NCBI GenBank assembly: GCA_016195715.1
Contig: JACPZA010000007.1
Span: 1 to 45,857, forward strand
Source of the DNA: Candidatus Daviesbacteria bacterium
Lineage (GTDB): Bacteria > Patescibacteriota > Microgenomatia > Daviesbacterales > UBA10151
Reading direction: 5' to 3'
Length of the DNA stretch: 45,857 nucleotides
The notes beneath the pieces were generated by a model, which saw only the letters and a program-made list of their open reading frames with translations, did not search any database and was not told the DNA's origin. The number at the start of each line of letters is the position of its first letter. The stretch's first letter is position 1. Positions 16,469-34,977 of the stretch are shown here, piece after piece. The translations under genes and the position numbers were made by a program.

Positions 16469-16492
16469 TCTTACTTTCAAATAGATTAGAGC

Positions 16493-16520
16493 TTGTAAAT
16501 GGACGATTTGGTAGTATAAC
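16493..16520 (+). promoter_or_regulatory. Putative promoter of the nucleotidyltransferase gene
   Basis: TTGTAA (16493-16498), a 16-base spacer and TATAAC (16515-16520). The predicted leader is about 39 nt. The left arm of a long inverted repeat (16501-16511) lies in the spacer. Confidence 0.4.
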
Positions 16521-16558
16521 TTAAATTGAATAAACTAAAAGTTTGTCCAAATCTGTCC
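16501..16558. promoter_or_regulatory. Inverted repeat with 35-base spacer before the nucleotidyltransferase
   Basis: GGAC-GATTTGG (16501-16511) is the reverse complement of CCAAATC-T-GTCC (16547-16558), apart from one bulged T. Exactly 35 bases lie between the arms. The left arm is in the promoter spacer and the right arm ends 7 bases before the ATG. This could be a two-site operator, or a leader stem if transcription starts further upstream. Confidence 0.5.
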
Positions 16559-16565
16559 AAAACAT

Positions 16566-33317: not shown

Positions 33318-33712
33318 AATTTTAGATATTCTTTTAATGCTTCTGCTGCTTTTTTAACTGGTTCAATTTTGGAAGTAAGTGCTTGTTTGAAATCAATCCA
33401 TAGTAGAGGATTTTTTTTATCTAAAATATGAGTTGGAACTTCACCTTGATATTTGCTGATATAAAAAGGATTAACTATAACTTTATTGAAACCATAAATT
33501 CTTTCTTTAGTGGGGATCTGAGTGAATTCTTTTGGAACTATTCCCAACTCTTCCATTGTTTCTCGAAACATAGCCAGTTCTAAAGTTTCATTTTCTTCAA
33601 CATTTCCTCCAGGGAAGAGTAGTTCATCGGCCCAATTGGAAGTTTGATGTCTTTTTTCTACTAAGATTTTTTCATCATTTTTTATTAAAAATATAACGAT
33701 TTGTTTATTCAT
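33314..33712 (-). CDS. Nudix hydrolase
   Basis: A 132-aa Nudix protein. The Nudix box is complete: G-x5-E-x7-R-E-x-x-E-E-x-G-I, in GGNVEENETLELAMFRETMEELGI at about residues 36-59. Family members hydrolyse nucleoside diphosphates linked to another group, such as 8-oxo-dGTP. The QTSNWADELLFPGG segment before the box suits a MutT-like enzyme. It sits between sbcD and sbcC with 4-base overlaps on both sides, which suggests a repair- or nucleotide-pool-related job. Substrate unknown. Confidence 0.88.
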   Translation of the reverse strand: MNKQIVIFLIKNDEKILVEKRHQTSNWADELLFPGGNVEENETLELAMFRETMEELGIVPKEFTQIPTKERIYGFNKVIVNPFYISKYQGEVPTHILDKKNPLLWIDFKQALTSKIEPVKKAAEALKEYLKL

Positions 33713-34854
33713 TCCAATAATTTAGCAGCGTAATCTTCTATTTGCTTTTGTTTTTCAGGAGAATATTTTTTGGCTTCAAAGTATTTTTTTAAAGCGGCGA
33801 TTGGAGTTAAGGTTTCTACTTCAACTCCTTCAAATTTTTGTCTTTCTACTCTTTCTATATTTCTAGATATACCAGCAATAATATGTGCATTTGCTAGCGC
33901 TTTTTTTATTTTGTCCATTTGAACTTCTTGCTGGCAGGCAGCTGGAATATTGATAATTACTTTAACTACTTTTTCCTCAATCTCATGTTTTTTTATTTCA
34001 TTTAAAATTGTTTGGGTAGGATTTGGATCATCACCTTTTAAAGTAATAGTAATTGTTAAAAACTTTCTAGCATTAGTTGGGAGAAATTTAAAAGTAGTTT
34101 TTCCAGTTTTTGGAATATCTACTAAACAAATACCTTTCTCTTCTTTTTCTTCACCAAAATCAATTCTGTGTGGTGAACCGACGTAGACAATTAGAGGATC
34201 GGTAGATAAAACTTGGTGTTTGTGGATATGACCTAAAGCGACATAATTTAATCTTCTATCTTGAAGTAAAGAAAGAGGTAAAGTTACATCATTTGCAATT
34301 GCCATGCCTTTTTCAGATCCATACTCTGCACCAATAATTTCTGAGTGAGATAAAAATATTGCAGGATAACTTTTATCTATCTTGTCATATAATAAATGCA
34401 ACTTTTCTCCAACAGTTTTATAGTCATTTTTATGAAGCCAGGGAAGAGTGACAATTTGCAACTTCCCAGACTTGGTCTCTATTTCTAGAAACTCTGGTTG
34501 ACGAGAAACCCAAACATTATCTATCTCAAGTGCCGAATAAATATCTAAAGTGTTAGCTTTGCCTTCTGCGTTAGGAGTATCGTGATTTCCAACTACTAAA
34601 ACTACAGGAATCCTTTTAGCAATTTTTCTAATTCTTTCTCCAAAGCCTCGCTGTTGAGTGGGGTTAGGATCTCTAGTTTTATAAGCATCTCCTGCAAAAA
34701 CTACTGCATCAACACTCTCTTTAAAAGCAGTTTCTACTATAAAATCAAAAGTTTGAAAAAAATCTAAAAGCCTAGTAGATAACCCAGTTTGTGGATCTAA
34801 TTTGGCATAATTTTCCATCCCTATATGAATATCTGCAAAGTGAAGTAATTTCAT
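33709..34854 (-). CDS. sbcD: Exonuclease subunit SbcD / Mre11-like phosphodiesterase
   Basis: A 381-aa calcineurin-like phosphoesterase. Metal ligands are visible: D8-x-H10 (HFADIHIG), AGDAYK, VVGNHDTP, LSHSE and ALGHIHKHQ. The C-terminal capping domain (about 270-345) is present. With SbcC it forms the Mre11-Rad50-type nuclease for DNA ends and hairpins. It is first in the sbcD-nudix-sbcC operon. The ATG lacks a Shine-Dalgarno. A leader of about 108 nt with interleaved dyads precedes it. Confidence 0.95.
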   Translation of the reverse strand: MKLLHFADIHIGMENYAKLDPQTGLSTRLLDFFQTFDFIVETAFKESVDAVVFAGDAYKTRDPNPTQQRGFGERIRKIAKRIPVVLVVGNHDTPNAEGKANTLDIYSALEIDNVWVSRQPEFLEIETKSGKLQIVTLPWLHKNDYKTVGEKLHLLYDKIDKSYPAIFLSHSEIIGAEYGSEKGMAIANDVTLPLSLLQDRRLNYVALGHIHKHQVLSTDPLIVYVGSPHRIDFGEEKEEKGICLVDIPKTGKTTFKFLPTNARKFLTITITLKGDDPNPTQTILNEIKKHEIEEKVVKVIINIPAACQQEVQMDKIKKALANAHIIAGISRNIERVERQKFEGVEVETLTPIAALKKYFEAKKYSPEKQKQIEDYAAKLLE

Positions 34855-34860
34855 ATTTTT

Positions 34861-34928
34861 TGGACAATTCTTCCGACCTTACTTTGTTAGTTAAGTCACG
34901 TTATTGAATTGTCCATCACATAACGTGA
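34861..34928 (-). promoter_or_regulatory. Interleaved inverted repeats (pseudoknot order) in the sbcD leader
   Basis: Arm A TGGACAATTC (34861-34870) and A' GAATTGTCCA (34906-34915) are a perfect 10-bp repeat, 35 bases apart. Arm B TCACGTTAT (34896-34904) and B' ATAACGTGA (34920-34928) are a perfect 9-bp repeat. The order is A-B-A'-B'. As RNA it could form an H-type pseudoknot or two exclusive stems. It ends 6 bases before the sbcD ATG. On the plus strand, B-B' is followed by TCTTTT. Confidence 0.6.
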
Positions 34929-34968
34929 TCTTTTAAAAAGCTAGAGAACTCTTGATATCGGATTAAAA

Positions 34969-34977
34969 ATTATACCA
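34969..34977 (-). promoter_or_regulatory. Extended -10 promoter of sbcD
   Basis: TGGTATAAT on the minus strand, a perfect extended -10. Transcription would start near 34962 and give a leader of about 108 nt containing the interleaved repeats. Confidence 0.5.

Follow-up and report, generated by a model that had tools for sequence, protein, structure and literature searches.

The window, by which we mean the whole analysed stretch of 45,857 nt of Candidatus Daviesbacteria DNA, contains an sbcD gene whose leader lies among sbcD itself, a NUDIX gene, sbcC and a divergent GlsB-like gene. The names sbcD, sbcC and GlsB-like had been given in an earlier note made from the sequence, and are borne out by Pfam matches to Metallophos (sbcD), AAA_23 and SbcC_Walker_B (sbcC) and Transgly_assoc (the divergent gene). 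Upstream of sbcD, two inverted repeats interleave in the order A-B-A'-B', with perfect pairing of 9 bp for A/A' and 10 bp for B/B', and six bases (AAAAAT) separate arm B' from the sbcD ATG at 34854, all exactly as the earlier note had described. The features of this leader, and of a second occurrence of the same element in the window, are given below, where R1 and R2 are covariance models of the element.

34857..34929, minus strand: element copy 1, in the sbcD leader (R2 model positions 1-73; 77 bits, E 3.4e-13 in its own genome; seed of R1)
34920..34928, minus strand: arm A, TCACGTTAT, read from 34928 to 34920; 5' arm of helix S1, copy-specific and common only to the rpsL paralogue
34906..34915, minus strand: arm B, TGGACAATTC, read from 34915 to 34906; 5' arm of helix S2, which covaries in 8 of 10 pairs
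34896..34904, minus strand: arm A', ATAACGTGA, read from 34904 to 34896; 3' arm of helix S1, inside the S2 loop
34861..34870, minus strand: arm B', GAATTGTCCA, read from 34870 to 34861; 3' arm of the covarying helix S2, six bases 5' of the sbcD ATG
34969..34977, minus strand: extended -10-like TGGTATAAT, read from 34977 to 34969; candidate sbcD promoter by sequence alone, without a two-hexamer site
33709..34854, minus strand: sbcD, 381 aa, downstream of element copy 1 (Pfam Metallophos)
16486..16563, plus strand: element copy 2 (43.9 bits, E 6.4e-6 in its own genome)

Chance is excluded as the origin of the interleaved arms. Inverted repeats of at least 9 bp arose in 4.5%, and of at least 10 bp in 1.3%, of 3000 dinucleotide-preserving shuffles of the 123-nt stretch, while an interleaved 9 + 10 bp pair arose in none of the 3000. 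In the nested minimum free energy fold of the leader (z = -2.8), helix B is present and helix A is displaced by other local hairpins. The perfect extended -10 reported upstream of the arms is present, whereas no two-hexamer sigma-70 site was found near the leader, and the promoter consists of the -10 match alone. No terminator-like site was found in the leader region towards the divergent GlsB-like gene, on which the earlier note had suggested the B-B' stem could act, and a search of Rfam against the window gave no match at the gathering score and no meaningful one when the threshold was relaxed.

When the leader was compared with its own genome by BLAST, two further places emerged, making three copies. 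The first, at 75% identity, lies on contig 5 with an rpoC-like C-terminus on one side and rpsL on the other; the second, at 76% identity, lies on contig 35 downstream of trmD, the gene names at both being read from the sequences. The part of the leader that matched was the pseudoknot region, not the promoter. R1, built from these three copies and searched over 45 genomes of the GTDB family, matched at E up to 1 in 23 of them, and R2, built from 48 R1 matches at E < 0.004 in the fetched loci, recovered 18 copies in the own genome at E < 0.004, including the two in the window. The second of these has arms TGGACGATTTGG (16500-16511) and CCAAATCTGTCCA (16547-16559), with a one-base bulge, and is separated by two bases from the ATG (16566) that opens a 286-aa ORF. 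In total, 115 distinct copies were recovered; the 23 genomes that hold them all belong to one Patescibacteria family (Ca. Daviesbacteria), with copy number ranging from 0 to about 14 within one genus and few sites in common between near relatives.

The element is confined to this lineage. Across 374 genomes of the class, R2 matches at E < 0.01 came from the 23 family genomes, plus one at E 0.006 in another family, the only match, and a weak one, in the roughly 330 class members outside the family. An exact degenerate pattern searched in all 84,980 species genomes returned Candidatus Daviesbacteria or MAG records, no Rickettsia record, and one Rhodospirillaceae contig (L349), rejected as a chance match on a GC-rich contig where it overlaps reading frames on both strands. 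The bare arm-pair pattern had no power alone, occurring in 2 genomes besides the own among 95 relatives versus 3 in the reversed control, and its use in viral contigs was dropped as far too generic. The segment that precedes sbcD belongs to a dispersed family of palindromic repeats of ~70 nt that is restricted to this lineage, and the family has seemingly gone undescribed, as a literature search of limited reach found no description of such a repeat in Daviesbacteria or Patescibacteria.

The element, with a consensus of roughly AAGGTCGTRRTGGACAATTCGGYAG..ACTAAATTAACAGA..AAGGT..GAATTNGTCCAAAA, has one conserved helix (S2, the helix B of the sbcD leader) of 10-13 bp, often with a one-base bulge, and a loop of about 30-35 nt. 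Among 48 aligned copies, 97.9% of S2 cells were standard pairs (versus 23-62% pairing with a slid partner), two-sided changes were found in 8 of 10 pairs (64 two-sided cells versus 14.7 +/- 2.9 in shuffles), and across 119 rows all 9 predicted pairs showed two-sided change, although the model rewards pairing and so favours paired copies among the matches. The arm switches comprise GGACAATTC/GAATTGTCC, GGGCAATCC/GGATTGCCC, GGACGATTC/GAATCGTCC, GGACTTTTC/GAAAAGTCC and GGATGATTC/GAATCATCC.

Of the structured leader proposed in the earlier note, helix B thus stands, kept by compensatory change in a large family, whereas the pseudoknot as a conserved design does not. Helix A (S1) is strong in the sbcD copy, and the rpsL paralogue alone retains it, differing by one two-sided and one one-sided change; a strong helix at the A position in one tuf leader is unrelated to theirs. 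Over all 115 copies, complementarity between the 5' flank and the loop averaged 10.94, versus 10.58 +/- 0.21 for flanks matched with loops from other copies, and the observed value was reached in 10 of 200 shuffles of this cross-copy control. As this is barely above the control, the pseudoknot is not a family trait, and helix A was rejected as a general family helix; of the two helices that would both covary in an H-type pseudoknot, S2 does so and S1 does not. The sbcD leader itself may nonetheless form one. Two copies (L306:1002-1094 and L308:1011-1124) have a loop enlarged by an additional insert that is itself palindromic, suggesting that further repeats have nested there.

Copies are strongly biased towards, and oriented relative to, translation starts. 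Sixty of the 115 are followed after 0-7 nt by an ATG that starts an ORF of 60 aa or more, compared with 2.8% of random positions in the same loci and none on the opposite side of the element, and distance to a start codon is no part of the covariance model. The genes 3' of copies, named from their N-termini rather than by family search, include those for ribosomal proteins (rpsL, rpsG, rpsC, rpsS, rpsQ, rplN, rplX, rpsH, rpsM, rpsJ, rplT, rpsB and rpmA) as well as tuf, frr, efp, ssb, acpP, nrdR, dnaG, grpE, hrcA and sbcD. Some sites recur, namely rpsC in six genomes, tuf in three, and rpsS, rpsJ and acpP in two each. Elsewhere, four copies end 0-4 nt before tRNA genes, some lie between convergent genes, and head-to-head pairs occupy the 16S-23S spacer of three genomes (L171 in G021, L279 in G003 and L209 in G017). 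These pairs adjoin tRNA-Ala or the 5' end of the 23S rRNA, and could form processing-like stems in the rRNA precursor. Copies also occur in frame within coding genes, specifically those for NusG (nusG) and L7/L12 (rplL) in the own genome and for L1 (rplA), DnaX (dnaX) and TopA (topA) in relatives. All use one common reading frame, giving the peptide V-x-x-D-D/N-S-A...S-K, and the TopA site falls in a linker that varies in length in all relatives.

The position of the element bears on the spacing between the Shine-Dalgarno (SD) site and the start codon. In the linear leaders of 59 start-adjacent copies, an SD-like site lies 3-14 nt before the ATG in 1.7%, whereas after in silico excision of helix and loop this rises to 31%, with a peak at 8-12 nt, compared with 14% in a shuffled control and with 28% (peak at 8) for native genes of the same loci (n = 149). 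The signal is real but moderate, with a strong SD in about one third of leaders. The hairpin carries an SD-like AAGGT at its 5' foot, which is not significantly stronger at start codons than elsewhere (p = 0.21) and is therefore a property of the element and no proof of use. In contrast, an SD further upstream of the element is specific to start contexts (p = 0.0014). At the level of sequence, the family thus has an SD 5' and an AUG 3' of a hairpin that, when folded, places them at working distance, but the sbcD copy does not, its foot lacking a clear SD.

The rplV-rpsC junction illustrates this arrangement. In many element-free genomes, no more than 2-6 nt separate the L22 stop from the S3 ATG. 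Where the element is present, L22 ends inside it in G029 and G038, and the SD (AGGAGGTAAACAG or AGGAGGAAAACAG) remains upstream of the element, while in G000, G006 and G035 the L22 reading frame runs through the element and stops at its 3' end, and in G013 the copy has diverged, with outer arms that still pair. The order SD-element-ATG is also found at rpsQ and rplN (G003), rpsQ (G035), rpsG (own genome) and rpsM (G018). At about seven operon junctions the upstream gene reads through the element, and translational coupling may there take the place of bridging. At the same junction in the element-free genomes G036, G043, G010, G039, G044, G033 and G018 (loci L321, L338, L334, L335, L332, L327 and L322, respectively), an SD-like site is separated from the rpsC ATG by unrelated hairpin-folding sequences, and hairpins in this place may be a general habit of the lineage. 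In five copies the ATG falls inside the 3' arm, three of these being clear gene starts, namely rpsS in G003 (L294:10207-10279) and G035 (L317:5663-5735) and rplX in G013 (L165:1501-1573). These three have their own SD in the loop and a 5' arm altered to GGACAT, with which the start codon pairs, and could, judging from their sequences, act as start-codon locks.

Scattered sites with little overlap between near relatives, varying copy number, in-frame insertions and inverted pairs all favour mobility, and we infer that the element is mobile and is moved by a transposing enzyme. A spare 3' arm after the copy in L190 points to a possible second insertion at one site. Target duplication and the precise left end of the element could not be fixed at the sites examined, among them rplV-rpsC. 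Of the features of MITEs, terminal inverted repeats are present, while no duplication was resolved at rplV-rpsC and no parent transposon was found. RAYT-like Y1 transposase genes occur in 41 of the 45 family genomes, with up to 12 per genome (e.g. on C5, C12 and C27 of G000). However, neither R1 nor R2 gave a significant copy around 39 Y1_Tnp loci, and a link to these common genes was rejected, as none is flanked by the element; no cognate repeats of the lineage's RAYT-like genes were identified. An attC-like integron site was also discarded, RYYYAAC/GTTRRRY boxes not being apparent by eye.

Several known systems resemble the element in part. Rickettsia palindromic elements (RPEs) are dispersed palindromic repeats inserted in frame into housekeeping proteins in a common reading frame (PMC3767692, PMC10969869), and the Daviesbacteria element is likewise dispersed in a small-genome lineage and inserted in frame with a recurring peptide, as the NusG, L7/L12, L1, DnaX and TopA copies show. 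RPEs, however, are about 100-150 bp long and of other sequence, while the element described here is found mainly within a few bases upstream of start codons and tRNAs. REPs lie near the 3' ends of upstream genes at a varying distance to the next gene (PMC3733652), which is the reverse of the gene-relative position found here. The element shares with GTAG REPs a short palindrome with inverted pairs and a lineage containing RAYT-like genes, and has GTRR 5' of the stem in 62 of 115 copies, but exact GTAG is found in only 15 of 115, the loop is long and RAYT genes are not flanked, so that neither the tag at the palindrome foot nor the flanked RAYT gene of GTAG REPs holds for this family. The SD-hairpin-AUG arrangement is known from phage T4 genes 25 and 38, where a hairpin shortens a spacer of 27 or 22 nt to 11 or 5 nt (PMC3014915), and from E. 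coli thrS, where a hairpin likewise brings an over-long spacer between SD and AUG down to working distance (PMC3936740). Those are single-gene cases, whereas in Daviesbacteria the same order is seen from sequence in a dispersed repeat at many genes, with a predicted function.

We consider it probable that the element is a REP/RPE-like miniature mobile repeat, and that start codons tolerate it because its hairpin bridges a split ribosome-binding site. It would disperse as a repeat of the REP/RPE type, entering coding genes in frame and sites beside tRNAs and rRNA, and settling mostly a few bases from a start codon. Insertion there would split the ribosome-binding site, leaving the AAGGT foot on the 5' side of the helix, together with a native GGAGG still farther upstream in several genes, and the AUG immediately on the 3' side, and folding of the helix would bring SD and AUG to a normal distance. 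Restoration of this distance would explain why essential ribosomal genes tolerate the element, and we infer that their translation proceeds across the hairpin; such bridging may contribute to the pressure on the arms to stay paired. A bolder version, which we put forward only tentatively, is that the mobile element is itself adapted to translation starts, carrying its own SD-like foot and bridging hairpin, such that it can enter between the SD and the start codon of essential genes without silencing them, after which the host would come to depend on the hairpin.

The recurrence of the element at rpsC, tuf and acpP in several genera counts against the mobile-repeat reading, as it also fits a retained regulatory RNA. 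Under that alternative, the element would be an immobile cis-regulatory family, a hairpin for translational or RNA-processing control held by selection before translation genes, for example as a site for RNase III or a ribosomal protein. Strong covariation, the tight and oriented position before start codons, the bias towards translation genes and the repeated occurrence at rpsC, tuf, rpsS, rpsJ and acpP are what it would predict. However, a regulatory leader sits poorly with copies in frame in proteins, 5' of tRNAs, in the rRNA spacer, between convergent genes and head-to-head, or with the swings in copy number within one genus and the few sites common to near relatives, and we regard it as unlikely. 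A promoter or protein-binding DNA element, with paired operator half-sites and a -10-like TAGAAT in the 3' arm setting the transcription start just before the gene or tRNA, is improbable. Some copies do read TTGGTAGAAT with a suitably spaced start codon or tRNA 5' end, but the hexamer is not kept in most copies, on which ground a promoter inside the element was rejected; many copies lie inside operons or coding sequence, and arm letters change while pairing stays, which a sequence-specific site would not require.

Least credible of all is the reading from which the analysis started, a pseudoknotted leader through which SbcCD regulates itself. The perfect A/A' pairing and the changes that keep helix A in the rpsL paralogue speak for it. 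Against it, helix A is no family trait and goes unused in the nested fold, and the same element precedes dozens of unrelated genes as well as tRNAs. Furthermore, in the upstream regions of sbcD in relatives, the comparison by which the earlier note had proposed to judge its own idea, the element is absent from all 29 loci.

Taken as a mobile repeat that is tolerated at translation starts, the element would extend what is known of split ribosome-binding sites, which have been described in few genes, as here a repeat family appears to make them at many essential genes of one lineage, where compensatory changes attest to retention of the hairpin. It also provides a searchable marker for this candidate-phylum lineage, for which, to our knowledge, there is no cultured model. 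If confirmed, these findings would show a genomic repeat living in the most sensitive spot of an essential gene, a tolerance of the ribosome for hairpins in the SD-AUG spacer, and dependence on an inserted RNA structure that has arisen without adaptation.
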